DNA from: Owenia fusiformis
Lineage: Eukaryota; Annelida; Polychaeta; Sabellida; Oweniidae
DNA: 64,000 bases
NCBI GenBank assembly: GCA_903813345.2
Contig: CAIIXF020000002.1
Location: 19,730,455-19,794,454, forward strand
Direction of reading: 5' to 3'
The position numbers and the translations under genes were made by a program. The notes beneath the pieces were generated by a model, which was given only the letters and a program-made list of their open reading frames with translations, was not told the DNA's origin and searched no databases. Numbering within the stretch: the stretch's first letter is position 1; every line of letters starts with the position of its first letter. Shown here piece by piece: positions 25,623 to 62,076 of this stretch.

Positions 25623-25951
25623 TTAGTGATGTTTTTCAGAGAGTTTTCGGACGTGTAGTTTTTTATGCGTCCTCAAACTTCCAGGTGCAGAAAACCCCTG
25701 ATTACACACGCCACACTTATACGGCCTTTCACCAGTGTGGATGTTTGTGTGATACTGTAGATTACATTTCTTAGTGAATGTCTTCAGGCAGGTATGACAT
25801 TTGTAGTTCCTCGGCTGGCTGTTTTTGAGATTTCTGGCGTGTACGTGGTTTGGAATTCTCACGAAGTGTTCCTGCGTCCCCATTGTCTGCGCCAATCCAG
25901 TCTCCATGTTTTGGTACGGCATTGTCTCCAAAGGATACACACCAGGATATA
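25623..25951 (-). CDS. ZF exon T (last of the array)
   Basis: Acceptor ATATGTTGCAG; starts YPGVYPLETMPYQN. Finger 1 YKCHTCLKTF with K,C,N,Y; linker HTGERPY; finger 2 YKCGVCNQGF with A,G,S,T; tail RKLSEKHH. Nothing finger-like follows until the separate 13-finger gene. Confidence 0.9.
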
Positions 25952-26976
25952 CTGCAACATATTCGTATTAAATTAATATTTCAATCGTGGGATTTAGGTT
26001 CAGGACTTAACAATATTTATACATCGAGCCAGGGATATGGGATAACAAATTCTACACAACGCATAGGCGTAGCCAGGGGGGGGGGGGTGGTGCGATGAGT
26101 GCGATCTCCGCATCTTCCAAATGTAGGGGTCTAGATATCATCCACTGTTACTGGGAAGAATGAGGGAAGTGGATTGTGTCTGGACCCCTGTGTTCGGAGG
26201 ATCATGTGTCATTTACTCTTCTGCAACTATCTTAAATAAAAAATCACAAATGAATGATTTCACTTCATGATTTTAAAATTGAAACAATAGTTTCTTTGTA
26301 AAGTTGCTCGCTTTACCTGGTTCTAACATTATATAACCTGAATTTGGCTGGGGGGAGTTGAAAAATAATAGTACAAGAAATAATCTGTGTAATACTATAT
26401 GTATAAAATGTATTATATATTTAAAGTAAAATGAATGAAACGCATTGAACAAGAGGCAAAATACATGCATCATGGTATTGTTTAGTTTAGGAATAAAGAC
26501 CGAGATTATATGATCTATGGCGTGATGCGACGCGTATATGACTGAAAAATTTATTCTGTTCATTGTTAACCGAAATCGCGTAGCGATTGAGGTCTTTGGC
26601 AATGGCCAGAATATAATTTGAGGTCATATATTTGACATAAATCATAAAATCGTGGTCTTTGTTACGAATCTTAGCGGTCATACAAGTTTTTGGTAAAAAA
26701 TGTGTCTAATCAAAACAATTTTCATATAATCTTCATTTACAACAATTTCAAAAATACTAACTTAAATCCTCATTTGTCATTGATGAACATATTAATCAAG
26801 TAATCTGGTAATTATACAAAAAATAATAAAATCAGTAACAATTTACTCTAACTATACGCAGTTCCTAATTTGCTTATACAAAGGAATTCCTATAAATAAC
26901 ATGTAATTCTACTGTTCTAGGTCCAATCCACATTGATTATATATAAAATACTTATCATCAATTTATAAACAGCAAA
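25952..26976. other. Intron between ZF exons S and T, downstream part
   Basis: Poly-G run at about 26079-26088. No gene or clear element. Confidence 0.6.
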
Positions 26977-27556
26977 AATATTACATGTTTATATGCAGAA
27001 TATTACATGTTTATTTGCAGAATATTACATGTTTATATGCAGAATATTACATGTTTATTTGCAGAATATTACATGTTTATATGCAGAATATTACATGTCT
27101 ATTTGCAGAATATTACATGTTTATATGCAGAATATTACATGTTTATTTGCAGAATATTACATGTTTATTTGCAGAATATTATATGTTTATTTGCAGAATA
27201 TTACATGTTTATTTGCAGAGTATTACATGTTTATATGCAGAATATTACATGTTTATTTGCAGAATATAACATGTTTATTTGCAGAATATTACATGTTTAT
27301 TTGCAGAGTATTACATGTTTATATGCAGAATATTACATGTTTATTTGCAGAATATTACATGTTTATATGCAGAATATTACATGTTTATATGCAGGATATT
27401 ACATGTTTATTTGCAGAATATTACATGTTTATATGCAGGATGTTTATTTGCAGAATATTACATGTTTATTTGCAGGATATTACATGTTTATTTGCAGAAT
27501 ATTACATGTTTATTTGCAGAATATTACATGTTTATATGCAGGATATTACATGTTTC
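26977..27556. repeat. 22-bp minisatellite, about 26 copies
   Basis: Unit contains ATTACATGTTTAT then (A/T)TGCAG. Copies differ mainly by A or T before TGCAG. Three + strand frames stay open through the array because 22 is not a multiple of 3 and the unit has no stop; that is a by-product, not coding. Confidence 0.95.
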
Positions 27557-27650
27557 TTTACTGTTTTTATGTTACCAGAATTCTGGGTTATCCCCTATTG
27601 TATGTTCCACTTACAGAGATTCATTTACATTAAGTTGATGGATTATGGTA

Positions 27651-27930
27651 GTTACAATTATGGAGGTGCTCCACTATAAGAGGTGTTCTTAAAAATGTTA
27701 CAATTATGGAGGTGCTCCACTATAAGAGGTGTTCTTAAAAATGTTACAATTATGGAGGTGTTCCACTTTAAGATGTGTTCTTAAAAATGTTACAATTATG
27801 GAGGTGTTCCACTATAAGAGGTGTTCTTAAAATGTTACAATTATGGAGGTGTTCCACTTTAAGGGGTGTTCTTAAAATGTTACAATTATGGAGGTGTTCC
27901 ACTTTAAGAGTTGTTCCACTTAACAAGTTT
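27651..27930. repeat. 45/46-bp tandem repeat, six copies
   Basis: Units starting GTTACAATTATGGAGGTG at 27651, 27697, 27743, 27789, 27834 and 27879. The GTGTTCCACTT phrase followed by TTTACTGTA also occurs singly near 44560-44660 and 63590-63640, so the array grew from a dispersed repeat. Confidence 0.93.
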
Positions 27931-28219
27931 ACTGTACTTAATATATATAATTATATATTATATAATATTCTACTGGTGGTGTATGCGATTCGGAAAATAA
28001 ATGAAACATCACAAATCAATATTAAATCAATCAATTTTTCTATACCTCATACCCTGTGTGGTAGTATTAATATCAACAATACAGTACTACTATGCAGGAT
28101 ATGAGGTATAGCAAAATAAAGGAATATTAAACATGTATAATTCCAATGCACATGTGCTATTAAGTTTATAAAATCGACACTTAACTCAAAAACATGCTTG
28201 CTTTAAAGAAACAAGCAAG

Positions 28220-28545
28220 CTACCAACGAGAGTTATCCAAGTTCATTTTTTGATGGGTTTTCTTATGTGTCCTTAAACTTGCTGGTGCTGAAAATCCCCG
28301 ATCGCACACTGGGCATTTGTATGGTCTCTCGCCAGTGTGGATATTTGTGTGATAATCCAAATGACATTTCTTAGTGAATGTCTTCAAGCATGTATGGCAT
28401 TTGTAGTTTCTGGGCTGATTGTGTTTGGGACTTCTTGGCTTCCTTTGGGATGGGTATTGTATTTGCTGACCATATGTTTCTGTCGGCAGCATGGATGTCC
28501 CGGCTTTCACCAGTTGGTGATAAAGTATCGAATCCGAGGGATAAA
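28220..28545 (-). CDS. ZF exon S
   Basis: Acceptor TTATATTGCAG; starts YPSDSILYHQLV. Finger 1 YKCHTCLKTF with K,C,H,Y; linker HTGERPY; finger 2 YKCPVCDRGF with A,A,S,T; tail MNLDNSRW. Close sister of T. Confidence 0.9.
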
Positions 28546-29182
28546 CTGCAATATAAATAACAAATTATTCAAAGCATTTTTTGAGAAAATATTAACCCAC
28601 ATAAGAATTACAATTTTTCAGTTAGTATTTCAGTGAGGTAATTAAAATCATTGATTCAATAATATGTATGCCAAAATGTTATCTCTCAGTCTCTCCAGTG
28701 TGGGTGGATTTCATGTAACAAAACGTTACACAACAGTTCTATCCCATGTATTGAAGTAACATAATATCACAAATGGCATCTTATGTTATTTAAGAAACAG
28801 AAAAAGCATAATATGACCACCGATGCAGAATTCTGAATGTTGATCATAAAAATCCCTTGTTTGTTTTCCTTGTACCCTTGTATGATTTGGGTTTTTGCCA
28901 GGACGCAAAACAAAGAATCTACTTCTTATGGCCTAAGCACAAATGGATTGTTTTGGATACTATTCCATTATAAATATTAATGTTTGTGGCATTATCATGA
29001 CATTAAACTTCAGAAAGAAAAGCTTGGAATGTTCCACTGATCTATATACCATCACACTCATAAGATGCATGCTACTTGCATCCCATAATGCACTACTGGT
29101 AACAATGCCCTCTATATCCTGTTTGAAAAACATGGCATGCTGAGATCTGTTGTCTCTAAAATCCTCACATCGATAATCTAAT
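28546..29182. other. Intron between ZF exons R and S
   Basis: No element recognised; a single CTCTCCAGTGTGGGTGGAT near 28693 resembles the antisense of a finger linker and may be a fossil. Confidence 0.5.
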
Positions 29183-29529
29183 TTATATTTTTGGATCTGG
29201 ATGATGAATTCTGTTATGAGAACTCAGACTAGCTGGTGCAGCGAATCCCTGTCTGCACTGCAGGCATTTATACGGCCTTTCTCCAGTATGTATGTTTGTG
29301 TGATACTGCAGGCTGCATTTCTTAGTAAAGGTCTTCAGGCATGCTTTGCATTCATACATCTTCTTGGGCTTCTTTTTTACGGGGGTTTTCGGATGTGAGT
29401 AGGTTTCGCGATGGTCCTGGTTGAAAAGCTGACATTGACGCTGTGTTGATCCCATTGATGTCATGGACATAGCAGCCTCCATTTGGTACTGGTAAGATTT
29501 CGTAACTATTGGATACACACCGGGATCCA
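29183..29529 (-). CDS. ZF exon R
   Basis: Acceptor ATATGTTGCAG; starts DPGVYPIVTKSYQ, aligning with YPGVYPLE of T. Finger 1 YECKACLKTF with K,C,S,Y; linker HTGERPY; finger 2 YKCLQCRQGF with A,A,S,S; ends HHPDPKI. Confidence 0.9.
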
Positions 29530-29689
29530 CTGCAACATATTATCAAAACAATATTTTAGTGAATATAGTTCATGACCCAACATGGCACATGGATATCTAC
29601 CTTAAGATTTTCCTAAATAATAGGACTACATAGAGGCAGGGGGTGATAACCAAAAAATAATCTTGGAACTAATCTGCAGTATCTTAAAA

Positions 29690-30525
29690 TGTACACAGTA
29701 CTATACATTGAAACCTGCACAGCCAGTATGTCTCACCAGTATGTACAATGGGAAAGTTTTCCCAGTGTGTATCTCATATAACACAATATTGAAATTCTGC
29801 TAGTATTTATATGTATTTATATGTTACCCGAGAGAAAGTCTCACCAGTATATAATTCACATGATGCAGACAATTGCCAGTATGTTCAACCAGTATCACAT
29901 GATACAATACAAGAAAATACCTCTAGTGTGTACCCCATGCAATACAATAAGGACATTTCACCAGTGAGTATTTCACATGTTGCAGAATCAGAATCTTACT
30001 AATATATATTCCGTGTGATAATTGCACACTTTAGTAGAGTGTATAGCATGCATGTATGTTCTTCATATTATGCAGTATTTAATTTTGCCAGTTTGTATTC
30101 CTTGTGCATGATACAAATGTACAATCTCACAAGTGTGTATTATGTATTACAAAGTTGATTTTTCTACGAGTGTGAGTATTTCATCTGATACAATTGCACA
30201 GTTTAGCAGAGATGACATGCATGTATTTTCTTCACATAATATGGTGGTTAAATCTTGCCAGTATGTATTCCATGTCATACAGCTGTACCAACTCACCAGT
30301 ATGTATCCTGTGTTGCACAGTAGAATATTCTACGAGTGTGAGTATGACATCTGATACAATTGTATGCACACTTTAGCAAAGTGTATAGCATGCATGTACT
30401 TCACATTGTATATTGATTAAATTTTGCCAGTATGTATTCCATGACATACAGCTGTACCATCTCACCAGTATGTACTCTATATTACAAAGTAGAATATTCT
30501 ACGAGTGTCATTGCATGATACATTT
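29690..30525 (-). repeat. Decayed repeat field with finger-linker-like phrases
   Basis: CCAGTATGTA recurs at many points. Read on the minus strand, TACATACTGGTGAG gives (I)HTGE. From about 30060 the field becomes a tandem repeat of about 170 bp with three copies (CCAGTATGTATTCCATG at 30259 and 30429, diverged copy at 30088). No open frame survives. Confidence 0.65.
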
Positions 30526-30967
30526 TCAGAATTTGCCCATAGGTGTCTAGCGGCATGATTTATAGTGTATTTAATATAAGACACTATTATGGAATAAATT
30601 GAACTGAAAATTAAATTGAATAAGTGTAATACACTTCATAAGGGAGATGTACTGGGAGGTTTGAGAAAGGGTATTTATCCCGAGGAGATATTTCAGAGGG
30701 ATAAGATGAACTTACATAATGGATCTATTAGAAACCTGAACCCCTGTGTATCCCATGTTTTTATTACATAATCTCTCTGGTGTATATAGTATAAGTGGAT
30801 TGTCAACTATAAAAGCAAAATCAGGCTCTGGGTTAAACTGATTGAAAATACTTGTAAAACATTTTTTTCATTGTATTGTGTTTTATTTCAATTTGTAACA
30901 AATACCATACATCAAACAAATTAAAACATTTCAAAACAATGTGTATGCATATTAATTTTGCTATCAA

Positions 30968-31311
30968 TTAATGTAAAGCATTATGGTGATTCTTCATGTG
31001 CTGAGATAGGCCTGCTGGTGAAGGGAATCCTTGGTTACATATGGAACATACATATGGCTTGTGGCCGGTGTGGGTATTCATATGATACCCTAAATGGCAT
31101 TTCTGCATAAATGTCTTTAAACAAATTGTACATTTCCACTTTCTTGGAGCTTTCAAATCTGCTTTGAAGTTTCCAGGTTGAAACTGAGATTTTTCTCTGG
31201 TATGTGTTGCATGTGTTTTTCCAGTGTGGATGCTCTTAGTTGTACCGCCAGTATGTAGTTTTATTAAACCATGGTTAGTGGAGTCCCAATGTGGAAGTTG
31301 ATCATTCCATC
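30968..31311 (-). CDS. ZF exon Q
   Basis: Acceptor TATTTGTTGCAG; spacer WNDQLPHWDSTNHGLIKLH with HTGG, HTGK and HTREK linker fossils. Finger 1 WKCTICLKTF with Q,C,H,Y; finger 2 S,A,G,Q, same as P. TTTATT at 30882-30887 gives AATAAA about 80 bp after the stop. Confidence 0.9.
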
Positions 31312-32179
31312 CTGCAACAAATAGTGTACTTATTAATGTCCAAATCTTCATTCTTCAGGTTTTTTAACTTTAAATACAGAATCATTTATTTTTCTCCCTA
31401 ACTTTCTTGCAACTACTAATCTAGTAATTTGATTCCGATGCTTTTGATTGGCTCTTTATCAGTTTATTTGGCCAGAAAAAGATAAAGTGTTTTGTATTTT
31501 ATTTAGGGGGTTTTATCATTCATTCAGAAGTGTTGAAAAATACAAGTAAAAACAAAAGATATTTCCATAATCGCATTCCATAATCTCAATATGGCCTCGT
31601 TGATTGTAATAAATGGTAGAATTAGGAGATCATCTAACAAACTAGTGGGCATATTAACTCATTAAACAATTATAGGTAATCTATTGTGACAGTACTGATA
31701 TTGCAGAATGCATGTTAGAGATATTTCATGATTATGGGCTACAGGCCATGTGAAAACATCAAAAAGTATTAAAATAGCATGTATTATATATCATATCAAG
31801 TCAGAATACAATCTGTTTGTATTCCACAAAATAAAAGTGCAAAATCTCTCCAGTATGAATTCTATGCAATGGTGTGGCAAACTTAGGAGTCAGTCCCCAG
31901 TATGGATTCCATGTGGTAAAGTAAAATGTGATCACCTTTTTAGTATAAACACTTTTTCAGTTTCATCAATGTCAGAAAATATTGAAAACTTTTGAGTGGT
32001 CCCTGTGGCATTTAGATTAGACAGGTTTTACTGTATTTTGTCAATTGCCAACTATAAGAGGATTATATGCTAATTAGATGAATCTGAATCTGAGACATAA
32101 TGTAGTTTCCCCGATTGAAAATATAACATTGTGTAACATGTACATGTATGTTCATTATTTTGCTGGTCCATTATTGCAA
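31312..32179. other. Intron between ZF exons P and Q
   Basis: Two linker-like fossils near 31848-31910 (CTCTCCAGTATGAATTCTAT and CCCCAGTATGGATTCCATG). Nothing else seen. Confidence 0.5.
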
Positions 32180-32688
32180 CTAATGCAAAGCATTATGGTG
32201 GTTCTTCATGTGTTGAGAGAGGCCTGCTGGTGAAGGGAATCCTTGGTTACATATGGAACATACATATGGCCTGTGCCCTGTGTGGGTATTCATATGATAG
32301 CCAAGATGGTTCCTCTGTATGAATCTCTTAAGGCATATTGTACATTGCCATTTTCTTTTATATTTTGAGTCAGGTTTGCCATTTCCAGTCTGAAACTGTG
32401 GTGATTCTCTAGTTTGAAACTGTGGTGATTCTCCAGTTTGAAATTGTGGTGATTCTCCAGTTTGAAATTGTGGTGATTCTCCAATTTGAAATTGTGGTGA
32501 TTCTCCAGTTTGAAACTGTGGTGTTTTTCCTGTTTGAAACTGTGAGGATTCTCCAATTTGTCCCCTCATAGGGCCTCCATGTGTCTCCCAGTTATGAACA
32601 CTCGTCATTGTCTCACTAGTATGTACACCATCACCTTGACTTGGACTGTGGATGATAATCCCCCATTGTGGATGGGGATTGTTGCCAA
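32180..32688 (-). CDS. ZF exon P (coding minisatellite in spacer)
   Basis: Acceptor TATCTGTTTCAG; spacer GNNPHPQWGIIIHSP, then about seven copies of an eight-residue unit (QFQTGESP). Finger 1 WQCTICLKRF with Q,N,H,Y; linker HTGHRPY; finger 2 YVCSICNQGF with S,A,G,Q; ends HNALH. Finger 2 protein sequence is identical to that of Q. Confidence 0.9.
32395..32545 (-). repeat. 24-bp coding minisatellite in exon P
   Basis: About six to seven in-frame units containing GGTGATTCTCCAGTTTGAAA on the + strand; eight codons per unit, so copy-number change keeps the frame. Confidence 0.93.
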
Positions 32689-33434: not shown

Positions 33435-34060
33435 TACTGTGCAAATATGTCATTAATATGGCCTAATATGGGCATATGATCCTATGCATTTCTCAATAAT
33501 GATTTGCACTTGGTGAACATTCTTTTATGGAGTGGTAACTTGAGTGGATGTCCAAATGTTTGTAGGCATTTCATTTAAGGAGTTTATTTCTTGTGTGCAA
33601 ATGTCATTAATATCGCCTTTTATGGGGATATGTCTCCCTATTGGGCCTCTGGTCCAATGTGATCATCAGCATGTGTTTGCACTTGGTGAAATGTTCTCTT
33701 ATGGACTGATAACTTGTGTGGATGTCCAAATGCTTGTGGGCACATGTTGCATTCATGGGGTTTATTTCCAGTGTGCAAATGTCATTAATATGGCCTTATA
33801 TGGGGATATGTCTCCCTATTAGGCCTCTGGTCCAATGTGATCATCATCATGTGTTTGCACTTGGTGAAATGTTCTCTTATGGACTGATAACTTGTGTGGA
33901 TGTCCAAATGCTTGGGGGCACATGTTGCATTCATGGGGTTTATTTCCAGTGTGCAAATGTCATTAATATGGCCTTATATGGGGATATGTCTCCCTATTGG
34001 GCCTCTGGTCCAATGTGATCATCAGCATGTGTTTGCACTTGGTGGAACATTCTCTTATGG
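33435..34060 (-). repeat. 178-bp tandem repeat derived from the second finger of exon O
   Basis: GGACTGATAACTTGTGTGGA recurs at about 33703, 33881 and 34059, with an older copy at about 33525. At least one extra unit still encodes an intact finger (HTGNKPHECNMC to VHKR) bounded by stops, with no first finger or acceptor before it. Confidence 0.88.
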
Positions 34061-34277
34061 ACTGATAACTTGTGTGGATGTCCAAATGCTTGTGGGCACA
34101 TGTTGCATTCATGGGGTTTATTGCCAGTATGTATGTTCATATGAGTGGTCAAGTGTGACCTACGTTTGAACCGTTTCAGACATAGTGCACATTGATGTTT
34201 TCTCTGCACCTGTGAATTGTCTTCTGTTGCCATGGTAACACTCACAGTCTCATATTTCCAAGGTGATTGTTGCCAGT
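33994..34277 (-). CDS. ZF exon O
   Basis: Acceptor CTGTTTTTACAG; short spacer WQQSPWKYETVSVTMATED. Finger 1 [10 protein letters not shown] with R,S,H,T; linker HTGNKPH; finger 2 HECNMCPQAF with H,H,K,V. The second half of the exon is the first unit of a 178-bp tandem repeat that continues past the stop. Confidence 0.88.
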
Positions 34278-36971: not shown

Positions 36972-38881
36972 TTACTCGTAATCTGAATCTGGGGAATACA
37001 AGGGGTGAGAAAATTGGGATTGTTTTACTTGAGATTCAGGTTCAAGATATTGGGGTTGTGTCACTTGGGATTGGGGTTTATCCTGTGAATATTGGGGTTG
37101 AGGGTGCTCTGAAGTTTGTGGAAGTGATTCTGAGTAGGAGTGGATATAAGGCTGAGTGTGTGGAGAGTCACCTAGGGGATGTTGTGATTGGGATAAGTTG
37201 AAGGCAGCAGATGGGAGAGCTTGTGAATCAGAGTCTAGGGCCTCAGACTGAAGATATCTGGAAGAAGATTGGGAATACCTTCCTGATAATTGAGATTGCT
37301 GGTTTTGTGAGTGAGAAGATTTGACTTCATGGCGCTCAGATGTAGGAGACATTGCTTTGGATTTAGGAGATTTAAGGACTGATGGTTCTCGGCCTGTGAG
37401 ACAACATGAGTTTGGGGGAGATAAGGAGGTTTCTGGACTTATAACAGGAATGCTTATGGAACTCTCATCAGCCTTAGGTTTTGATGATTTAGCCTTTGCT
37501 TTTGAACTTTGAAGATGTGGATATTTCACCTTCTTTTCTCTGGACGGATCCTTGTTATCTTCTGGGTTATCTTCAGAAGAATGAGCAGGAGATATTTGTT
37601 CTTTATGTGTTTGAGAGTGTACAGCTTGTGGCTGGAGAAGATGCAGTAAAGCAAGCTGAGAAGGGGACAGCTGCAGTGAGGATAGCAATGGGTTTTGAGG
37701 GGTTATGGCTTGTAATTGAGAGGGTGGTGCTTGTAGTTGAGGGGGTGGGACTTGTTGGTGAGGATGTGGGGCTTGTAGTTTAGAGGATGGGGCTTGTAAA
37801 GCTTGAAGATGAGGATATTTTGGAGTAGGAGGTTTATCTTTATCAGCAGGATAGACTTCAGATTTAATTTCAGAAGTCTGAGGCTGTGAGGTCTGGGGTT
37901 GGAGAAGTCGGAGAACTGCTAGCTGGGCAGGGGAGAGACCTAACTGGGCAGCCAGGGTGGGGGAAAGGGGTAGCAAGGCCTGAGGGGTTGGGGACTGAGG
38001 AACCTGGGGTAATAGTGTCTGGGCTTGAAATTGGAGTAATGATAACTGCGCTGCAGTGAGTTGCAATTGATTGGCTTGTGAAGGAGATAGATGTGGGTAT
38101 TGTAACTGGGTTGCTTGTACTTGAGATGGTTTCATTAGTTTGTAATGTGTTCTTTTATGCTGTACTAATCCAAATGGATGACCGAATCGTTTTAGGCAGA
38201 GTTCACATTTAAATGGTTTCTCGCCTGTATGGGTCCTCAAATGGTTTACTAAGTGTATCTTTTGTTTGAATGTTTTCAAACAGGCATCACATTTGTGTGG
38301 TCTTGTAGCATCCTCTACTGGCTTCCCTGGTTTGGTGCATGGTTTAGCTTCCTCAAAAGAATGTTTATCATGTTCATGGGCTGCTTTACTGCCATCTTCA
38401 AATTTCTCTTTCTCTAGTTCTTTCTGGAAAATTACCGATGCATGTTTATGAAGTATTTTTAATTCATCTTGATCTGTTTTAGTATCAATTTGTTTATTAC
38501 TAATATCATCTTTTTCAATGTTTGATTGTGATGTCATCGAAGTAAACAGTGCATCTTTCCATTTTTCATGTTCAGATGCATTTGGCTGTTCTTCATTTTT
38601 GTTAAGTTCCTCACTATCATCTGGTTTATTACTATTTTCAAGTATCTTTGGTGATTGATTAATACTTTCGAACTTTGATTTTGTCGGTGTGGTATTAGCT
38701 TCAACTTTGTGGCACATCTTCTCAATGTCAACTGGCATTTTAAGGTGCTTTCTTGCGTCAATGGTACTAGCTACTGCATTACTTGGCATTTTGAGATTCT
38801 CCCTTGTTGTAGTATTATCTGGTCGCCTATCAATATCTGCTCGTGGCAGTGTGCTTAGTCCAAGAAGCGCGACAGCTGCAG
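36972..38881 (-). CDS. ZF exon N (long, with Gln/Pro/Ser-rich tail)
   Basis: Acceptor TTTTGATTTCAG. At 1910 bp it is four times the usual size. About 195 residues of polar spacer, then finger 1 HKCDACLKTF (Q,I,H,N), linker HTGEKPF, finger 2 [10 protein letters not shown] (H,F,G,Q). About 390 residues follow, rich in Gln, Pro, Ser and Leu, with repeated LSPxQLxLL-like phrases: a plausible transcriptional activation or interaction region. The only exon of the array with a large domain after the fingers. Confidence 0.9.
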
Positions 38882-40358: not shown

Positions 40359-42305
40359 CAGGGCGTTCAGTAAGTAAAGCTAATTTTGCTCTCAAACTTT
40401 TATTTCTTGTCTATCATCGTTCAAATTTTCAGTGGAGTGGCATCAGACACTGTTCTAACTATCCTGAAAAAATGATCAAGATATAATGAATAACAGCTAA
40501 ATGGTGGTTGTCATAGTAACGCGAATACGGGTTCTGCGGAGCAATTTTATAAGTTCACAACATAGTAGATTTTGTTAACGTTAGTTTCTGTCCTGTCTAT
40601 ATTTCAACCATAGTTCTGTGGCTACTCCACATTTCTACTTTCAAGTTAGCATTCTATTTCATGTTCAAAGTAGTTCCCCTAAGCTTTCACACTCAGCTGA
40701 TGTCATTCTATCCACTTCTGATATATCCTGTGGAAGCCATCTGGAAAGTTCTTTGTCAGCAAACGTTAAACGGCATTCTGAAGTTCATGGATATTTGCGT
40801 GGATCTTACCACGCAAATCATTTTTCAAACATGAAAATACCCCAAAATCGCACAGTGCCTTGTCAGGAGAATACGCTGACTGGCCTTGAACCTCCATCTC
40901 CAGCGTTTTCTGGATAGTATCCTGCACCATTTGCGACCTATGCGATGGCGTATTATCTAGATGGAATATGTAGGAGTTGAGAGTCCTATGGGGCCTTTTC
41001 TTGCGAATCGCGTTCACAAGATGGCGCCGCAGCAGCTGAAAATGAAATGTGAATTTGATCATTTGATGTTTAAGTTAAAATGTTTTCTTTGTATTATTTT
41101 AGAGGTAGACCTAGTACTCAAACCAAGCTAATTATTAGAAAGCTATATTTCATAAAATGTAATTACCATGGCATAATATTCCTTGTTAACAGTCTGCCCT
41201 TCTGGCATGGCATGAGCCAACAATGGACCTTCGATGTCTATAAAAATGATAAACACGACTTTCCCCGCTGATGCTCCAAGAGCTAGCTTTGCAACGATCC
41301 CCACGGGTGTTGGAGAGTTCTTTGTTCGCCACGCACTGTTCTGTCTTGTACTATTTGGCTCAAAGTATCGAACAAAAGTTTCATCACAAGTGAGAAGATT
41401 GTTTAGAAAGTCCTCTCCCTCATCTTTGTAACGGCGCAAGAATGCAACTGAATCTTCCAGGCGATGTTTACGCTGCTCGTCGGTCAGATTCTTTGGTACC
41501 CATTTCACAGACACCAAGGACATATTTAGAGAATTGTGAATCAGATAATGTACCCATCCTAGGCTGATATTGGTTAGTTCTTAGAATTCCCTTACAGTTA
41601 TACTGCGGTCTTCATCTAACAATTGCCTCAAATGATTCATGTTAGCCTCTTTGGTTAGAAGTTTTGGCCTCCCTGACCTTGGCTCATCACTTGTTGTTTT
41701 TCTCCCCTTTTGGAATTTCTGATACCATTTGTAGATTGTGTACTTACTTAGGCACACTGTCCCCATATGCTTTTTGGATATCCCTAATGGTATCCTGCTT
41801 GGATTTCCCTAGCAACACATTGTATCTGATGCTACTTCTCAATTGTTGTTTCATTTCATTGTTCATTTTGCTTTCATTGGCAATCCTGGCAGCCATGATT
41901 TTGATGATGTCATGGAGCAGTGTCTGATGGATCATTCTGGATCATTCCATCTGTTGTATCATCTGTCTGTGATGTCATAGACTACTGTTGCCATGGTATC
42001 ATATTTGTGTATGTTGTTGTTATGTTTGTCGTGACTTTCAGCCATAGCAAACAAAGACATATGCAGCATTAATCTTAATCAATTTCATTGCATTATAACA
42101 TTTTTATTAAAGTAAGAAATTGCTCCGCAGAACCCGTATTCACGTTACTATGACAACCATTGTTTTGCTATTATTCATCATATCTTATTTACTTTATCAG
42201 GGTAGTTAGAAAAATGTCAAATGCTTCTTCACTGAAAATTTGAAAGATAAATGACAAAAAATAAAAGTTTGAGAGCAAAATTAGCTTTACTTACTGAACG
42301 CCCTG
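40359..42305 (-). mobile_element. Decayed mariner-type transposon with long terminal inverted repeats
   Basis: Bounded by TA (40357-40358 and 42306-42307). Ends CAGGGCGTTCAGTAAGTAAA match inverted; similarity continues about 185 bp on each side (to about 40545, from about 42119), unusually long for mariner. Encloses a broken transposase on the minus strand. Confidence 0.88.
40766..41935 (-). pseudogene. Mariner transposase, broken
   Basis: Four overlapping or nearby fragments in different frames. The N-terminal helix-turn-helix part is at 41935-41581 (KWYQKFQKGR, SGRP), with a frame change near 41750. A WVPxxLT motif follows (41523 on), then TCDET, LDNTPSH and a degenerate YSPD..L.D block: the DD(about 34)D acid triad can still be traced. 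Stops and frame changes show it cannot make a full protein. Confidence 0.85.
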
Positions 42306-42888: not shown

Positions 42889-43196
42889 TTACATGGCCGG
42901 TGTGAAAGAAAGAGATATCTCATGTCCTTTCTGCTTCTTGTGTTTGATGAGATTCCCAGGATGGGCATAAGCCTGATCACAAAACTCACACTTAAAAGGG
43001 CGCTGCCCCATGTGAATATTGATATGGTAGCTGAGATTCTGCTTTGTGGCGAATGATTTCAAACATAGGTGGCACTGGTGTATCTTTGCAAGTATGGCTT
43101 TCTGTGAGGATGCCCGGACACAGGTTAGGGCAGAGGGGGGCATCTCAATCGGGGGAGGGTGCTGTGTGTATTGTTGCTTCTCAGAGTAGATGTTAC
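42889..43196 (-). CDS. ZF exon M
   Basis: Acceptor CTTTAATTCCAG; spacer NIYSEKQQYTQHPPPIEMPP. Finger 1 HQCHLCLKSF with T,Q,N,Y; linker is HMGQRPF instead of HTGEKP; finger 2 FKCEFCDQAY with H,G,N,K and an H-x5-H end (HKKQKGH). Confidence 0.86.
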
Positions 43197-47722: not shown

Positions 47723-48033
47723 CTAGGTGTTGTACACCGTGATTATGTTATGGGCATGCTCTAAATGTCCCTTGAGATGGTGCTTCTGTCTGAATGTTTT
47801 CTCACACAAATTACAGCCAAATGGTTTCTCACCAGTATGAACCCTCAAGTGACGGTCACGTATGAACTTGCTTTTAAATGTCTTAAGACATAGATCACAT
47901 TTATACTTGTAATTGGTAGATTCTTCACACGTTGTGGGTTCACTCCTTCCAAATTGACTTGTTTGAGAAGTGCCAAGGGTTACTGCTTCAAATGGTGCTC
48001 TGCCTAAGTCAGATGGATAAAATCGTTCCAGAA
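47723..48033 (-). CDS. ZF exon L
   Basis: Acceptor TTGTTGATTTCAG; spacer LERFYPSDLGRAPFEAVT. Finger 1 YKCDLCLKTF has Arg at helix position 4, where Leu is expected, so its fold may be weakened. Finger 2 FGCNLCEKTF with Q,H,H,G. Tail AHNIITVYNT. The last 60 bases of this exon are the source of the tandem repeats at 46.4-47.7 kb. Confidence 0.87.
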
Positions 48034-49702: not shown

Positions 49703-50035
49703 CTACTTTCTATGGAGATTCTCGTGCTGCTTGAGATTGTCCTTTCGTCCAAATGCCTTATTGCAAAATGAACATTTAAAAGGTTTTTCTCCAGTGTGGA
49801 CCTTTAAGTGTCTTTCTAGTTTATATGGTGATTGAAATGTTTTCCTACAGAGCTGGCAAATGTGCTGTTTGTCTGATTTGTGCCTAGAGGGAGTCTGTGG
49901 TTGAGTTGATTGTACTCTATAGTGTACAGGGAGACCTTGGTCAGACTGATGAGTGGCCATTGACTGATTAGCGGCTATTGACTGATGATATCTACCTTCA
50001 AGTAATCCTACACTGCCCATATAACCTGGAAAGAT
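49703..50035 (-). CDS. ZF exon K
   Basis: Acceptor TTATCTTTCCAG; Gln/Ser-rich spacer YMGSVGLLEGRYHQS. Finger 1 HICQLCRKTF with S,Y,K,R; finger 2 FKCSFCNKAF with R,D,N,Q and a short H-x3-H end three residues before the stop. AATAAA (TTTATT at 49633-49638) follows 65 bp after the stop. Confidence 0.88.
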   Translation of the reverse strand: MFPGYMGSVGLLEGRYHQSIAANQSMATHQSDQGLPVHYRVQSTQPQTPSRHKSDKQHICQLCRKTFQSPYKLERHLKVHTGEKPFKCSFCNKAFGRKDNLKQHENLHRK

Positions 50036-50395: not shown

Positions 50396-50859
50396 CTATT
50401 CGAGCACTTTGTGAACCATTCTCCTGTGTTGTTTCAAACTTTGGGGCTGGATAAATGATTTTTTGCAAAATTCACAAGTGTATGGTTTCTCTCCAGTATG
50501 GATCCTACAATGGTATCTATAGTTTGTGACATCACAGAATGACTTCAGACACATTGTACACAGAAATTTGTTTTTTCTGATTCGTTGCTTTTTTTCTCCA
50601 GTGTGGGTACTAATGTCCTCTCCCGTATGTATTCCTGTTATATCTCGAGTGTTTTCATTGATTTTCTCCCCAATGTGGGGCATATCATTATTATTATGAC
50701 TGTCATAACTAGCACCATATATTTGATATGGTAAACAGTCACTATGAGGGTTCTTGTTTGGCAATTGATGGCCTTGAACCCTTAATGACCTTGAGGTTGC
50801 TATGGAAGGCTCATGTTGTCTTCTCTCCCAAGCAAGTGTTGTTACCATGGTTACATGGC
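50396..50859 (-). CDS. ZF exon J
   Basis: Acceptor TTTCTACTTTCAG; long spacer HVTMVTTLAWERRQHE with several linker fossils (HIGEK, IHTGED, THTGEK). Finger 1 FLCTMCLKSF has Tyr instead of Leu at helix position 4 (D,T,N,Y). Finger 2 YTCEFCKKSF with Q,Q,S,Q and Pro at helix position 1, as in exons M to T. Confidence 0.87.
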
Positions 50860-51567: not shown

Positions 51568-51920
51568 TTATTCAAGCTCACAATTAGGATCCATTTTATG
51601 TACATGATTTATATGACTCTTAAGATGATGCTTCATCCTAAAGCTTTTTCCACATATCTGACAACAATGGGGTTTCTCTCCAGTATGGACTTTAAAATGA
51701 TGGTTCAAACCGGTGCGATCTCTGAAGAATTTACAGCAGAGATTGCACTGAAATTTATGTTGTTGCTTGTTTTTAGGACTAACATCGGAATACCACACTG
51801 CATTATTTGTCAATGCATCAGTGTCTCCTCTAGTGTCAAATAATGAGTCTTCAGTTTTTAAGTCATCTTTTGAAGTGGCATCATGATTCTGTCCTCCATA
51901 ATGCTGCCAGTATATCTTGG
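51568..51920 (-). CDS. ZF exon I
   Basis: Acceptor TTATTTTTCAG; acidic spacer starting [19 protein letters not shown]. Finger 1 [10 protein letters not shown] with D,T,G,H; linker HTGEKPH; finger 2 CCQICGKSF with M,H,H,S; tail [11 protein letters not shown]. Confidence 0.87.
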
Positions 51921-51934
51921 CTGAAAAATAAGTG

Positions 51935-52696: not shown

Positions 52697-53100
52697 TTAT
52701 GAAAAATAAGTCATATCCATTTTATGCACCCTTTGGACATGTTGTTTTAGTTGATGCTTGAGTTTGAATGTTCTTCTGCACATATCACATATAAATGGCC
52801 TTTCTCCAGTATGGATCATCATATGATTACTCAGATTACAACTATTTCTAAACCTCTTGCTACAACAAGGACATTTATATTTCAACTGGATCATTTGTCC
52901 TCCACGTGTGATAGATACATCATCTGGAATGCTGTCAATGTTCATGTCAGGAGTTGTTATTTCTCCAGTGTAGGTACCTATCTTTCCAGTACTGACATTT
53001 CCAGTGTGGGATATTGTCTCTTCAGTATAGGTACCTATCTCTCCAATGTGTTGTAATTTCCAATTCTCATAGTTAATATTAGTTGGGTATTCTCCTTGAC
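52697..53100 (-). CDS. ZF exon H
   Basis: Acceptor TGCTTTCCAG; spacer nearly the same as G, but several TGE motifs are mutated (YTEET, HTGNV, STGKI). Finger 1 as in G (N,C,N,N); finger 2 FICDMCRRTF with L,H,Q,Q; tail VHKMDMTYFS, like exons B, C and I. Confidence 0.88.
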
Positions 53101-53737: not shown

Positions 53738-53893
53738 TTTTGCATTTGTATGGTAATATTGAATATGCATTCCTTTCACTGAACTTAACTGAACATAAAC
53801 GCAACGATCAAATTTCAGCTTTAGAAGCACTATGAATGCTACTGTATTTTGATGAGATGAAAGCAGTTTTTAGGATCCAAATTTTCAGTGAGT

Positions 53894-54327
53894 CTAGCTT
53901 GTCTGTTTATGTACTCCCCTCATATGTGTGTTAAGATGTTGTTGTTGCCTGAAACGCTTTAAACACATTATACACTGATATGGTTTCTCTCCAGTATGGA
54001 TCCGCATATGATTACTCAGATTACAACTATTTCTAAACCTTTTGCTACAACAAGGACATTTATATTTCAACTGTATCATTTTTCCTCCACGTGTGACGGA
54101 TACATTATGTTGACTTTTGACCACTGTGAAAGTCCCTGGGGTAGTTCTCTCAGTGGTTATTTCACCAGTGTGAGTACTTATCTCTCCAGTACCGTAATTC
54201 CTATCTCTGGTGTAGGTATCTATCTCTCCAGTGTGGGATATTGTCTCTCCAGTACAGGTACCTATCTCTCCAGTGTGTTGTAATTTCCAATTCTCATAGT
54301 TAATATTAGTTGGGTATTCTCCTTGAC
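53894..54327 (-). CDS. ZF exon G (mosaic of F and H types)
   Basis: Acceptor CTGCATTCCAG; spacer [16 protein letters not shown], as in H, with five TGE(I/T) copies. Finger 1 [10 protein letters not shown] with N,C,N,N is the H-type finger; finger 2 [10 protein letters not shown] with Q,Q,H,T and tail VHKQTS is the F-type finger. Confidence 0.88.
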
Positions 54328-54745: not shown

Positions 54746-55104
54746 CTAACTTGTCTGTTTATGCACTCCCTTCATATGTGTGTTAAGATGTTGTTGTTGC
54801 CTGAAGCGCTTTAAACACAGTACACATTGATATGGTTTCTCTCCAGTATGGATCCGCATATGAATTTGAAGATGTAATAAAGATCTGAATCGTTTATCAC
54901 AAATTTCACAACCAAAGTTCTTCAAAGCAACATCAGAAGCATTTCGAGTATTGCTAGGATTATTTGAATATCTTTCTCCGAATAAAAGGTTTGGAATATT
55001 ATCTGAACAACTCTTTCTAGTAAAAGTCTGTATGTGGTTTTCATAAGTCTTGCCAGTGAGGGTTCTTCCTGTTTTACTATAGCCCCAGTTGTAACCCATT
55101 GTCC
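54746..55104 (-). CDS. ZF exon F
   Basis: Acceptor TTATTTTCCAG; spacer TMGYNWGYSKTGRTLTGKT aligns with that of D. Finger 1 FGCEICDKRF with S,L,H,I. Finger 2 YQCVLCLKRF with Q,Q,H,T, ending GVHKQTS, shared with exon G. Confidence 0.88.
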
Positions 55105-55757: not shown

Positions 55758-56113
55758 TCAGTGTACTTTCCTGTTGTTCTTTATTTTGACTTGTTTATGT
55801 ACTCCTTTCATATGTGTATTGAGATGCTGATGTTGTCGGAATCGTTTCAAGCATAACTCACACTGAAATGGTCTCTCCCCAGTATGGATCCTCATGTGAA
55901 CTTTAAGTTCTTGCGAAAATTTAAATTGTTTACCACAAATATCACAACCAAATTTTGAAAAAACATTGGAGGCTTTAGGATTGTTGCCAGGTTTATTTGA
56001 AAGTCTTTCTCCAGATGAATAGTAATTTAGGTGTAATCCTCCAGTATGGATCTGTGTTTCTCCAGTAAGGATTCCCCCAGTGATTCCGTAGTTCATGGTG
56101 TCAATCTTTTTTA
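55758..56113 (-). CDS. ZF exon E
   Basis: Acceptor TTATTTTGCAG; spacer [13 protein letters not shown] followed by [11 protein letters not shown]. Finger 1 [10 protein letters not shown] with F,Q,E,V; finger 2 [10 protein letters not shown] with Q,Q,H,T, the same helix as in D. The tail is longer ([12 protein letters not shown]). Confidence 0.88.
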
Positions 56114-56510
56114 CTGCAAAATAAACCAACTTTAAATGTTAAATGTCAGTTGCAAAAAAATAAACAAAAGGTCCTAAGAGCTATCATTCTTGATATTACA
56201 TTACATATTTTATTTATAGAATTTGTCGTATAGTATCCAGCAATCTCAGCATATAAATAGTACTGTTACTTTGATACATATATTTGTAATAATCATGATT
56301 GTCCATATATTTATCATATCAACTGCTTCTTCTTGCTACACACATATACAATGGCCCTGTATGTATCCTGAGTGTCCATTCCTATGTCCTTTATGCCAGT
56401 ATTATGTGTCAATTCTCGAGTCCTATGTATCAACAATTCCTGTATCATATATTTGAGACGATGAGGGACACAAGCAGTCTATCCCAATATATTTCAGTAT
56501 TTTTCTGATA
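56114..56510. other. Intron between ZF exons D and E
   Basis: No feature beyond scattered CCTATGT/CCAGTATTATGTG phrases that may be old linker fossils. Confidence 0.4.
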
Positions 56511-56860
56511 CTATTGCCTATGCACTCCTTTCATATGTGTGTTAAGATGTTGGTGTTGTCTGAAACGCTTTAAACACAATGCACACTGGTATGGCTTCTC
56601 TCCAGTATGGATCCTCATATGAATCTTGAGATTTTGAGAATCTTTGAATCGTTTACCACAAACATCACAACCAAATTTCAAAACAACATTAGACGCATAG
56701 GGAACATTGCTAGGTTTACTTGAATGACTTTCTTTGAATGAACGATTCCAAGTATTCAATGCATGTCTTTCTCCTGCAAATGTCCGTATATAGTTTTCAG
56801 AAGTCTCGCCAGTGAGGATTCTTCCAAATTTACTAGAGGCCCAGCTGTCACTCATTGTCA
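56511..56860 (-). CDS. ZF exon D
   Basis: Acceptor TTATTTTCCAG; spacer [19 protein letters not shown], including old linker-like LTGET and FAGER pieces. Finger 1 [10 protein letters not shown] with D,Q,N,I; linker HTGEKPY; finger 2 [10 protein letters not shown] with Q,Q,H,T; ends GVHRQ. Clearly a sister of E and F. Confidence 0.88.
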
Positions 56861-57133
56861 CTGGAAAATAAACCAACTTTGAATTTACAATGAGTGTGTG
56901 TGCTAGATATTTACAAAACAATAAGTTTATAATAAGTTTATTGCTAACAAGAAATGAAACAGCAGCCAATGTCTGAAATTGAGAGGAATCAATGAAATTC
57001 AGGCGTGTTCTAAATTGTGATTGGTGTCCCCAAATTTGATTTTGATTTTATTCAGCCTAAAACTTTGATTCTCCAACATTTGAAACTATTAGATGCTTGA
57101 AAATTTCACAACTGGCTTGCACCAAGTTGAAGG

Positions 57134-57292
57134 CAAAATAAAAATAACAAGGCATTAACATGCAAAATGTCATCACCTGCCATTTGCTACAGAAGCCAAA
57201 TGCCGAACACCAACTACCAAATGCCAAACACCAACCATCATCCACAAAAAATTTAGAGACTAAAATATGTCACCACTTTTGGTGGTGATATA
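57134..57292. repeat. Dispersed repeat copy (also at 19143-19262)
   Basis: GCATTAACATGCAAAATGTC, CCTGCCATTTG.TACAGA, CATCCACAAAAA and GTCACCAC..GGTGGTGA occur in the same order at both places. Confidence 0.8.
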
Positions 57293-57521
57293 ACTATATT
57301 TTTGGGGAGAAAAATCCTTCAAGAACACATTATTATGTACTTTGTGGGCAAGTTTGATTAATATAACATAACTTTTTATTAGCATTAAAATTTATTTCTT
57401 CTTGCTATCTAATATTTGATTATATATATATATTTATACTGTATATATCAAAAAATATTATTGAAATTATTACACCTCCAGTTCTAGGCTTCCCAAAGGA
57501 ATGCCAAACATATATACCCAA

Positions 57522-57820
57522 ATCTGCACTTTGAAATCATGGTACCATATGGCAAAGAGTATGGTACTGTTAGAGATTGGTTATGTACAGGGTGTCCATA
57601 ATGCCTCTTTACACTTCACTCAGACTTTGTATTCTAATTTTATAGACCTGTATATTAAATCACATGCATTTTCTGTTTTGCTTCAAGAAGTAATAGTCCA
57701 AGCTTATATACATTTTTGACACTGTATGTTTGCACACAGTGTCAAGACACACATTGAGTGTCTAATTCAATGAGAATCTTTGATTAATTAAGCACCATTG
57801 TTGAAATATATAACAGACAA
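57522..57820. mobile_element. Fragments of two repeat families
   Basis: 57522-57590 resembles the element at 39074-39472. At 57588 CAGGGTGTCCATAATG, preceded by TA, looks like one end of a mariner-type miniature element whose other end is not seen. Confidence 0.5.
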
Positions 57821-58152
57821 TTAGCCGTAAAGTGGGGCATAATCGAGGTCCATTTTGTGCACATTTGCAATATGGCCTTTAAGGTGGTGCTTTAATCTGA
57901 ATGCCTTTTTACAAAGCTGGCATATTTGAGATTTCTCTCCAGTATGTAGTTTCATATGATTCTTATAGTTAGTTTTACATCCTTTTGGGAATCCTTTATG
58001 ACAAACTTCACAAAAATATTTAAGTTTATAGACTGTTGCTTTATGGGATATGTTGTCTGCTTGTGGTGATGCATAATGGGATGTGTCGCCTGCTTCATGC
58101 TTCATGTGGGACATGTTGTATCTCCCCTGCATAAAGTATTGTTCGTAGAAAT
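57821..58152 (-). CDS. ZF exon C (first finger C-x2-C-x14-H)
   Basis: Acceptor TTTGCAATTTTTCAG; spacer FYEQYFMQGRYNMSHMKHE. Finger 1 FCEVCHKGFPKGCKTNYKNH is two residues longer than usual between the last Cys and first His. Linker HTGEKSQ lacks the usual Pro. Finger 2 ICQLCKKAF with L,H,H,G. Tail VHKMDLDYAPLYG. A dead relative of its spacer lies at 62690-62875. Confidence 0.85.
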
Positions 58153-58220
58153 CTGAAAAATTGCAAAAAATAAATTAACAATAAAAACAAAAATAAGACA
58201 AGAACACAAATGTGTACAAA

Positions 58221-59686
58221 ATGTCCCCACCTATGGGTGATCCCTTCAAATGGTTATCCTAAAAATGAGTAGACAAGACTTTACCGACACAATTTGAGGA
58301 CGGAAAATCCAAAATGGCCACCTTAAAATTTACCAAGAACGCAAAAAAATTAGTCAGTTCTAGATTTTCATACTAAGAAACACCCCTGAAAATTTGAAAT
58401 TGATCCGTCACACAGTTAACCAGAAAACATGTAAACAAGACTTTACAGACAAGATTTGATGACAGAAAATCCAAAATGGCTGCCTTGACATTTATCCAGA
58501 ATGCCAAAAAACTAATCTGTTTTAGATTTTCATACTAAGAATCATCCCTGAAAATTTGAAATTGATCTACCAAACGGTTCACCTGGAAATGCGTAGACAA
58601 GACTTTACAAACAAGATTTTAGGACAGAAAATCCAAAATGGCTGCCTTGACATTTACCCAGAATGCCCAAAAACTAATCAGATCTAGATTTTCATATTAA
58701 GAATCATCCCTGAAAATTTGAAATTGATCTACCAAACGGTTCACCTAAAAACGCGTAGACAAGACTTTACGGGCAAGATTTTAAGACGGAAAATCCAAAA
58801 TGGCTGCCTTGACATGTATCCAGAATGCCAAAAAACTAATCAGATCTAGATTTTCATACTAAGAATCATCCCTGAAAATTTGAAATTGATCTAGCAAACG
58901 GTTCACCTGGAAACGCGTAGACAAGACTTTACAGACAAGATTTTAGGACGGAAAATCCAAAATGGCTGCCTTGACATTTACCCAGAATGCCCAAAAACTA
59001 ATCAGATCTAGATTTTCATACTAAGAATCATCCCTGAAAATTTGAAATTGATCTAGCAAACGGTTCACCTGAAAACGCGTAGACAAGACTTTACAGACAA
59101 GATTTTAGGATGAAAAAATCCAAAATGGCCGACAATAAAAAAGTGATTATGAGTTTTTGCTGATTTCTTTTTAAAAAATTATCACATATAACTACTGTTA
59201 ACAATAACATAGGCTTTTACAACAAAGTACACCTGAAATTATTTATAAAGCTACTAAATAGTTAAAGTATGAAAATTGAAAACACCATTCAATATGATAC
59301 AAAGTATTATTGTGCGCTAACTTTTCTTAAAACATTCAAAATGGCTGACATGACTGAGCTAACAGGTCCAAAACCTAATCAGATCTAGAATGAAGTTAGC
59401 TGAACAAGATTTTAAAGTTTTAAAAGCAACTGTGAAGCCGTTTTTCTAAAAGTTTGCAGACAAGGATTTTAGCATTTGACTTCAAAATGGCCGACAGGAA
59501 GTAGGTATCGAGATAAATTTTTTTCATCCACATCTGTATGCACTCATAAGTTATCCCTGAAAATTTGAAGGTGATATCTGTAGCGGTTTTGGAGAAAACT
59601 GCCGGACGTACGTACGGACAGACAGACGGACAGACAGACGGACGCGCCTAGGCCGACAATATGGCCCCACACTGTGGTGGGGACAT
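58221..59686. mobile_element. 1.47-kb element built of 160-bp tandem units, ends in inverted GTCCCCACC
   Basis: Left end ATGTCCCCACC, right end GGTGGGGACAT. Inside are about six units of 160 bp with GTAGACAAGACTTTAC, AAAATCCAAAATGGC and TCCCTGAAAATTTGAA at about 58271, 58431, 58591, 58751, 58915 and 59080. Toward the right end are GACAGACGGAC repeats. The ends resemble the GGTGGTGACAT end of the 19.1/57.1 kb repeat. Confidence 0.82.
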
Positions 59687-60344
59687 AAAAAGTATAAAAT
59701 AAGTTTAAAAGATCTGCCTTCCTAAAATGGAAAACTCATTGTGTGGGTATATGACACATTCAAACTTTACACACAGTCTTTAACCTACAGTACTATTATA
59801 TTTTATTATTGCAGTTTATTTGTCAATAATATAGCAATGCTCCCATAGATGGGTAATTTATGGGACTATGGGTTTTTGATATGCACATGCCTGTTCTACA
59901 CTTTAGATATATATCTTATACTTAAAATATTTTCTATCTTCACCACATCATTAAAAACCATATACCTGATCAGTGTGTTTCGGAGTAACAAAATTGTCCG
60001 ATGTCTTTCAAAATAGTCTCTGTTGTAAAATATATTGATAACATCATGAAAATATTGTCAGCTATGAAGATGAAGTCCCTCATTTATGGTGGTTGAGATC
60101 TCAAACTCCCCAAACATGCATGCATCTTAGATTGATGAAACGTAAAATTCTTGTCAGGAATCTAAGTGTTAGATACAAGAAAATTCAAGTAATATTTCTG
60201 ATGACTGAAGAAACGTTAAATGTTATCATTATTTTATAAATCTATTATTATCTCTTAGATTATCAAGGATTGCTTTTAAACATTTCATAGGTATATTTCC
60301 TCAAATCATAGCAAGGCATTCAAGATACATCAGAACATAATCTA

Positions 60345-60477
60345 CAGGGTGTCCCAGAACTCATAATTTTTTTGAGGGAGATATATTAGACATGGGTGAT
60401 TTTTCTCCAGTCGGTGCACTTATTTACATATAATGGGGCATATCTCAAAAACTTCTCATGACTTCTGAGACACCCTG
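60345..60477. mobile_element. 133-bp TA-flanked MITE
   Basis: Ends CAGGGTGTCCCAGAA and TTCTGAGACACCCTG, flanked by TA (60343-60344 and 60478-60479). A mariner-related miniature element downstream of exon B. Confidence 0.82.
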
Positions 60478-60749
60478 TATATTAGCCATATCATATTCAC
60501 AGTCAATTAAGCCAATTTATTAAGAAACGAGTTGTTATATTCAAGATATTACATAGTATTTAGTCCAGCCCTTGGTCACAGATTGCAAATTTGACTAACC
60601 ATGAAACATAGTCAACCTGCTGTGTTTACATAGATATCCCATTAGTGTTTGTCTTCACTGTTTCACAGTCTGATGTTTTATCTTTCCATATATTTTGCCT
60701 GCACTGTTTACTTTGTTCAACTGGTATCCACTATCTGTAATGGCTGAAG

Positions 60750-61051
60750 TTACAATGGTTTATAGGACATGTCCATCTTGTGAACAGTTCCAACGTGTCT
60801 CTTCAACTGATGCTTCAGCCGGAATGTCTTTTTACATAATGAACACTCATGTGACTTCTCTCCAGTATGTATTAACATATGGTTCTTATAATTTGTAAGA
60901 GTATTTGTTGCAATTCCTCTTGGACAGCTGCATACATATTTGTATTTTTTTACAATGCCGTCTGGTACATCTGATGCATTATGGGATAGCATTCTTCCCA
61001 TGTATGCATCCTCCATATCTGGGAACATTTCTTGGTTGATTTCTTGGAAAC
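60750..61051 (-). CDS. ZF exon B (first finger with C-x1-C knuckle)
   Basis: Acceptor ATTTTTCAG; spacer FQEINQEMFPDMED. The first finger reads VCSCPRG then NYKNHMLIH: compared with exon C it has one residue fewer between the two cysteines, so its zinc binding is doubtful. Finger 2 is normal, HECSLCKKTF with L,H,Q,R. Ends VHKMDMSYKPL, a tail motif shared with C, H and I. Confidence 0.82.
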
Positions 61052-61786
61052 CTGAAAAATAAAATAATAATTAGATCAATTGGTTAGTAACATATCAAAA
61101 CTATCCTTGGGAGCCCTGTCTTTAGTACATCTACAATCGGAATATAAAAACTTCCAAATTGGTACATTAATCTGCAAAAGAAATATACTGGAGACAAGTC
61201 TGACTCAAATAATATTTGAACAGTTATTATTGTCACAACTAGCACATTGTATCTACTAAAGAAATATCATGCAGAAAGGGAGTCATACATCTGACACTTT
61301 TTAGACACACATGAATTTTATTTTTGTTTTTGTTTTTCTCTTTCTGTTTTGTATCAATGAGGCCAGTACAACTAGTATCCTGTCTTTTATTTCTGCAAAT
61401 GAAATAATCCCCAACTGGATTGAAATTACCTTTCTATACAACCCTAACATAACCTAGATCATTGAAGAGGTGAACATCCATCACACAAATACAAAAATCT
61501 ATAGTCAACTTATAGTTAATTTGTGTTTTTATTCTGATCTTTATTTAGTTTTCATATATTCTATAGTAATAGAAATAAAATTGCATTTTAACAAATTAAT
61601 GATCTCAATCAAAACTAATCTGTACTAATGTAAAAGAATCAAACAAAACTTATCTGTACTCAAACATGACTAGTCTGTACTCAAGTAAGACTAATCTGGA
61701 CTCAAACAAGTCTAATCTGTACTCAAGGTACTCTAGCAAGACCAACCAATGCTCAAGCTAAACTAATTCATATATCTAGATTTCCA
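61052..61786. other. Intron between ZF exons A and B, with a degenerate 20-bp repeat
   Basis: From about 61612 to 61765, phrases such as ACTAATCTGTACTCAAG recur six to seven times with decay. Nothing else seen. Confidence 0.65.
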
Positions 61787-62076
61787 CTAATTAAATGTTA
61801 AAGGGTAGCTGGAATTGTCTATATTTTTATGATGTTTTCTAATCATATGTTTATTCAAGTTGCTCCTATCTGCAAATCTCTTTAAGCACATTGTGCACTC
61901 GTATGGCCTTTCTCCAGTATGTGTCCTAATGTGTGTCTTTAAATTATACAAGCGTTCAAAGCCTGCATGGCAGATCTCACATACATGTCTTTTGTTCATG
62001 TCCTTGTGGGTAAAATTATGGAGAGTTGATTGATTTGGTGTGGTATTTTGCTGGGGTATGTATCCCATATTCCAAC
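61787..62076 (-). CDS. ZF exon A
   Basis: First exon of the array in transcription order. Acceptor TTTCTCTTTCAG; spacer begins WNMGYIPQQNT. Finger 1 HVCEICHAGF with predicted base-contact residues (helix -1,2,3,6) R,Y,N,T. Linker HTGERPY. Finger 2 YECTMCLKRF with D,S,N,K and an H-x4-H end. The short spacer (about 30 residues) and its helices set it apart from B and C. Confidence 0.85.

Follow-up and report, generated by a model that had tools for sequence, protein, structure and literature searches.

The locus described here raises the question of how 20 zinc-finger exons, lying on one strand within 36 kb of an annelid genome, are put to use. The exons are contained in a window of 64,000 nucleotides (C2:19730455-19794454, forward strand), which is the whole stretch of DNA analyzed, on C2, a chromosome-scale contig of Owenia fusiformis. 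A preliminary description of the window had proposed a library of alternative last exons with the design of the insect gene lola. As judged from the genomic sequence, it is highly probable that the library forms part of a single transcription factor gene, in which a two-exon stem is spliced to any one of the 20 exons, each serving as an alternative last exon, and that the gene belongs to a family on the same chromosome. The existence of several such loci on one chromosome had not been foreseen in the preliminary description.

All 20 exons announced in the preliminary description were found in place, on the minus strand within positions 25623-62076 of the window. The description had also credited them with an acceptor, a common entry frame, usually a C2H2 pair and a private stop, and each of these features was recovered. 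For all 20 exons, we could name a pyrimidine-rich AG acceptor from which the frame is entered in phase 1, such that the first two bases of the exon complete a codon begun upstream; 19 of these acceptors were provided by a script, and that of exon 56511-56860 was taken from the candidate list of the same script. Every exon has its own stop, all 20 frames are open through the fingers, and two canonical C2H2 fingers are present in 18 of them, with an odd first finger in exons 57821-58152 and 60750-61051.

The same design was read directly at other positions of C2. A 46-kb stretch (C2:1.330-1.376 Mb) contains 18 cassettes and a four-finger exon, and a 36-kb stretch (C2:19.098-19.134 Mb) contains 15 cassettes, in both cases on the strand of their stem; these counts are for the two stretches only. 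For comparisons, we used a set of 63 cassettes over four libraries, which was later reduced to 62 when the four-finger exon, taken for another gene, was dropped. In a blind acceptor test, every AG between the frame start and the first finger was scored with a simple home-made matrix, and phase was disregarded. The best-scoring acceptor was in phase 1 for 19 of the 20 exons in the window and for 57 of the 63 cassettes in the four libraries, whereas about one third would be expected; these counts are not independent draws, because the cassettes are related by duplication. The six exceptions include the four-finger exon; in each of the remaining five, a phase-1 acceptor is present but scored lower.

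The preliminary description had placed the 5' exons common to all endings beyond position 64000 and had called for a phase-1 donor, and extending the sequence led to both. Inspection of the 60 kb to the right of the window, with coordinates continued past 64000 (extended coordinates), revealed two exons on the minus strand. The coding part of stem exon 1 is located at 67430-67940, with its ATG at 67940 and a phase-1 donor after 67430, and stem exon 2 is located at 66921-67247 and also ends in a phase-1 donor. The stem is situated 3-4 kb beyond the window, on the same strand as the library, and an intron of 4.8 kb separates it from the nearest ending. Its donors, AAAG/GTACCA and GCAG/GTGAGA, each leave one codon base, which is the phase needed by the library exons, and this shared phase fits all 20 acceptors.

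The stem comprises about 280 amino acids, namely, a conserved N-terminal domain of about 58 residues followed by a low-complexity part and an acidic part; no zinc fingers were seen in it. The domain follows the pattern IQDAVLKLCTQN...LEIDGIICVSPG...EIVVKMHRTI, after which come a Lys-Gly pair with the phase-1 donor and the acidic exon 2, where IKQEEP-like motifs resemble SUMO sites. A BTB or another shared domain had been anticipated for the stem, and it is the second option that held. Neither stem exon matched Pfam at E ≤ 1, and when exon 1 of eight paralogous stems was submitted to Pfam, the sole match was Hamartin (0.026) in one of the eight. When the exon 1 sequences of eight stems were combined in a profile, it did not match any solved structure up to an E value of 10. 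A single-sequence structure search with the stem gave one match (E value of 0.88), which was not accepted as a relative. A BTB stem was rejected, since Pfam reported no BTB in either stem exon or in the eight paralogous exons 1; this negative result refers to sequence searches, as no fold comparison was made. The closest BTB match on C2, among the 150 of 196 candidates that were scored, is located 1.6 Mb from the window.

The stem domain is shared widely. Exon 1 had 51 matches in the genome, 45 of them on C2 and six elsewhere (one each on C1, C6, C10, and C483 and two on C7), and a divergent stem query from C1 likewise had 51; the 12 matches of exon 2 were all on C2. Across the eight stem loci that were cut out, window locus included, the domain shows strong conservation, and the Lys-Gly pair after it is invariant. 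A phase-1 GT donor was observed in the Lys-Gly codon of exon 1 at all eight loci and in the Gly-Glu codon of exon 2 at all seven loci where exon 2 was seen. The script used examined those codons alone, and for locus L013 it printed a second Lys-Gly, whereas the GT donor lies immediately ahead of the printed letters. With a stricter, position-free donor pattern, a phase-1 donor was obtained in 2/8 exons 1 and 4/7 exons 2, and a phase-0 match was obtained in two exons 1 (L011 and L013).

To relate cassettes to stems along C2, three single-cassette queries were used, and only 150 of about 3,300 candidates were scored for each, so the resulting counts are lower bounds. At least 120 distinct short-frame cassettes were listed on C2, of which 16 are in the window. 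A same-strand stem was present upstream within 100 kb for 113 of the 120 listed cassettes and for 97 of the 104 outside the window, as compared to 7 when strands were flipped and a mean of 8.3 (maximum, 17) with random positions in 1,000 runs. Of the 44 C2 stem matches, 17 are accompanied by one or more of the listed cassettes and 9 by at least five. A library was thus not demonstrated for every family member, and some members need not have one: downstream of the stem at 33.046 Mb lies a nine-finger exon, and a stem on C7 is followed by an exon with two fingers according to the script and three by eye. Stems also occur in pairs: all eight pairs less than 12 kb apart are head-to-head (C2: 0.75, 9.70, 10.74, 14.48, 28.64, 32.33, 33.05, and 34.40 Mb), which suggests shared bidirectional promoters. 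No head-to-head partner of the window stem was detected in the 60 kb to its right with four stem queries. A frame at L038:9546-9998 (C2:33.0505 Mb) apparently contains the stem domain twice, as a tandem repeat.

Several observations weigh against a single gene with exchangeable last exons. Among the matches listed, 27 of 44 C2 stem matches have no cassette within 100 kb. Conversely, a same-strand stem within that distance is missing for 7 of the 120 listed cassettes; six of the seven come from a single plus-strand cluster with upstream DNA that reads N, and the seventh is at C2:22.097 Mb. Poly(A) signals (AATAAA or ATTAAA) were not enriched after the cassettes, since they occurred within 500 nucleotides of the stop in 44/63 cassettes versus a control value of 0.70 and within 250 nucleotides in 31/63 versus 0.47; as none rose above the AT-rich background, these signals were dropped as evidence for terminal exons. 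Finally, the lack of a credible start, asserted in the preliminary description, held for only part of the cassettes: the segment from the acceptor to the first finger has no in-frame Met in 21 of 62 but does have one in 41, so that separate starts are possible from the letters alone.

The in-frame Met residues bear on an alternative in which the cassettes are small zinc-finger genes in their own right, which arose by tandem duplication and have a promoter each. Tandem duplication is indeed plain, as the best match of 47/62 cassettes lies inside their own locus. However, independent genes are not expected to have a uniform phase-1 acceptor, nor does a separate start agree with the 21 cassettes devoid of any such Met, and the cassettes follow stems in strand and position. 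We therefore consider separate genes very unlikely.

A different alternative accepts the stem but has the endings joined to it by trans-splicing of separately transcribed RNAs and not by cis-splicing only. Since the junction phase is the same at all loci read, any stem could be joined in frame to any ending. Trans-splicing is documented at mod(mdg4) and, in part, at lola (PMC1947980, PMC11426971, and PMC12692577). A plus-strand cluster at C2:32.261-32.274 Mb (L036 and L037) also points in this direction: its nine intact phase-1 cassettes lie to the left of a minus-strand stem and library, and no plus-strand stem is visible for them. The DNA upstream of this cluster reads N, and its missing stem therefore proves nothing; a hidden stem is the simpler account. 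At the window locus, as for the 113 cassettes with an upstream same-strand stem, order and strand suit plain cis-splicing. Trans-splicing thus appears unlikely, although less so than separate genes.

It might also be argued that only one ending works and that most cassettes are dead copies of it. One exon of the library has a degenerate first finger, and the second finger of exon 33994-34277 recurs in two additional copies at 33686-33751 and 33864-33929; these copies are probably cassette fragments that originated from local tandem duplication. Against decay stand the 20 open frames, the retention of zinc ligands in both fingers of 60/62 cassettes, all of which have two canonical fingers, and the substitution pattern. 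The ratio of nonsynonymous to synonymous substitution (dN/dS) ranged from 0.10 to 0.59 in 17 of the 25 closest cassette pairs, synonymous sites being saturated in the other eight; it was therefore below 1 in all 17 computable pairs. The closest cassette pairs are under purifying selection, and we regard a library of dead copies as extremely unlikely.

The cassettes also differ in the residues predicted to contact DNA, at positions -1, 2, 3, and 6 of each finger. The combination of these eight positions was different in all 60 scorable cassettes. In these cassettes, the contact positions were not clearly more variable than the remaining non-framework positions; we therefore refer to diversity and not to positive selection. 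Between loci, similarity of cassettes tracked their rank from the stem (r values of 0.36, 0.20, and 0.20, with permutation p values of 0.002, 0.018, and 0.001, respectively). This partly conserved order, together with the best matches inside the own locus, fits a scenario in which whole libraries would have been copied and then enlarged by local duplication.

In the single-gene model that we favor, a pre-mRNA would start at the stem and extend across the library, of which a single acceptor would be chosen. The phase-1 donor of the stem would be joined to the chosen ending, which would bring its own stop and 3' end, and the endings would presumably be used in a mutually exclusive manner, with one per transcript. 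The products would have one common front and differing two-finger C2H2 DNA-binding ends, each possibly with its own DNA target. The stem domain may mediate protein contacts, perhaps oligomerization, as BTB does in lola. Since two fingers read few bases, the stem may serve to bring isoforms together, similar to the BTB oligomers of lola.

The individual endings, all on the minus strand and predicted to be alternative last exons, are as follows. The one nearest to the stem (61787-62076) has a C2H2 pair and its own stop. It is followed by the two exons with an odd first finger, namely, 60750-61051, in which a degenerate first finger precedes one canonical finger, and 57821-58152, in which an enlarged first finger precedes a canonical one. 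A C2H2 pair is present in each of the exons at 56511-56860, 55758-56113, 54746-55104, 53894-54327, 52697-53100, 51568-51920, 50396-50859, 49703-50025, 47723-48033, and 42889-43196. The exon at 36972-38881 has a C2H2 pair and, after the fingers, a long Pro/Gln/Ser-rich tail in a frame of about 637 amino acids. Next are the exon at 33994-34277, with a C2H2 pair and the copies of its second finger just downstream, and that at 32180-32688, with a C2H2 pair and a spacer that contains an internal repeat. The remaining exons, at 30968-31311, 29183-29529, 28220-28545, and 25623-25951, each have a C2H2 pair, the last being farthest from the stem.

Other features were observed in and around the library. 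Between two library exons, a frame at 41143-41580 was named by eye as a mariner-like transposase. A tandem array at 26977-27559 consists of 26.8 copies of a 22-base unit and gives rise to long plus-strand open frames; at its end, the unit has TTTGCAG, which resembles a splice acceptor yet is on the strand opposite to the library. Downstream of the library, a separate multi-finger C2H2 gene with 13 fingers is located at 16113-20282 on the minus strand, with a Thr/Glu/Pro-rich repeat tail and apparently its own upstream exons. On the other side, two tandem frames on the plus strand at 80545-83535 (extended coordinates) contain collagen-like repeats and a C-type-lectin-like end and were classified by eye as collectin-like. 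Elsewhere in the genome, all three erythrocruorin-linker matches listed exceeded the cut-off, in a family not known outside annelids. On C1, the largest contig, at least 11 homeobox matches (150 of 218 candidates scored) share one strand at 17.97-18.47 Mb, two of them separated by only 0.35 kb, and another is at 18.96 Mb; this agrees roughly with the compact cluster of 11 Hox genes on chromosome 1 of Owenia fusiformis, which has Post1 downstream of it (PMC9977687).

Libraries of alternative zinc-finger endings are best known from arthropods, where they are attached to TTK-type BTB stems. To have this arrangement of exons in an annelid, with another kind of stem and at several loci, would show that combinatorial splicing of transcription factors has arisen repeatedly. 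The locus further draws attention to an N-terminal domain not described by Pfam and to a route by which a lineage could obtain more than 100 DNA-binding variants while having only a limited set of genes. A broader proposal, which we regard as speculative and doubtful, is that of a chromosome-wide toolkit, in which dozens of stems with the new domain and at least about 120 two-finger endings would share one phase-1 junction. Stems could be combined with the endings of their own locus and, through trans-splicing, perhaps also with those of other loci or alleles; mixed complexes of isoforms could be assembled by means of the stem domain. If true, this toolkit would be a spiralian counterpart of the arthropod TTK-BTB system, with an independent origin. 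Among the open-access titles and beginnings of abstracts listed, with subscription papers and preprints outside this scope, we found no account of this stem family or of lola-like libraries in annelids or molluscs; the gene models of the published genome may already include parts of the library.

Among known systems, Broad-Complex has a similar plan of alternative endings, with about four C2H2-pair exons, but its BTB stem is unlike that of Owenia. KRAB-ZNF and ZAD-ZNF proteins also combine an N-terminal domain with C2H2 fingers and have expanded in clusters, but their diversity resides in separate genes with multi-finger arrays and not in alternative endings. Mollusc zinc-finger proteins with a similar N-terminal pattern may exist. 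Drosophila mod(mdg4) has a BTB stem and mostly FLYWCH endings, and its mRNAs are formed by trans-splicing, whereas the Owenia endings are C2H2 pairs; the Pfam results listed for two of the 20 endings did not include FLYWCH, and the significant matches were zinc-finger families.

The closest parallel is lola of Drosophila, for which at least 20 isoforms, generated by cis- and trans-splicing (PMC1947980), and C2H2 fingers in 17 of 20 endings (PMC11426971) have been reported. Both loci have one shared N-terminal stem and about 20 alternative C-terminal exons, 20 on the same strand in Owenia, most of them with zinc fingers, and in both the donor phase of the stem exon fits every ending, this being phase 1 in Owenia. 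However, the stem of lola is a TTK-type BTB, whereas no BTB was found in that of Owenia, where, moreover, several loci on one chromosome have the design. According to PMC11426971, TTK-type BTB was not found outside Arthropoda in a search that included Annelida and Mollusca. The preliminary description had considered a lola-like design in an animal other than an arthropod, and this is what the locus appears to represent: since Owenia is an annelid, it would have the design of lola without being lola. As no sequence relation of the stem to BTB was found, the likeness between the two loci is most likely the result of convergence.

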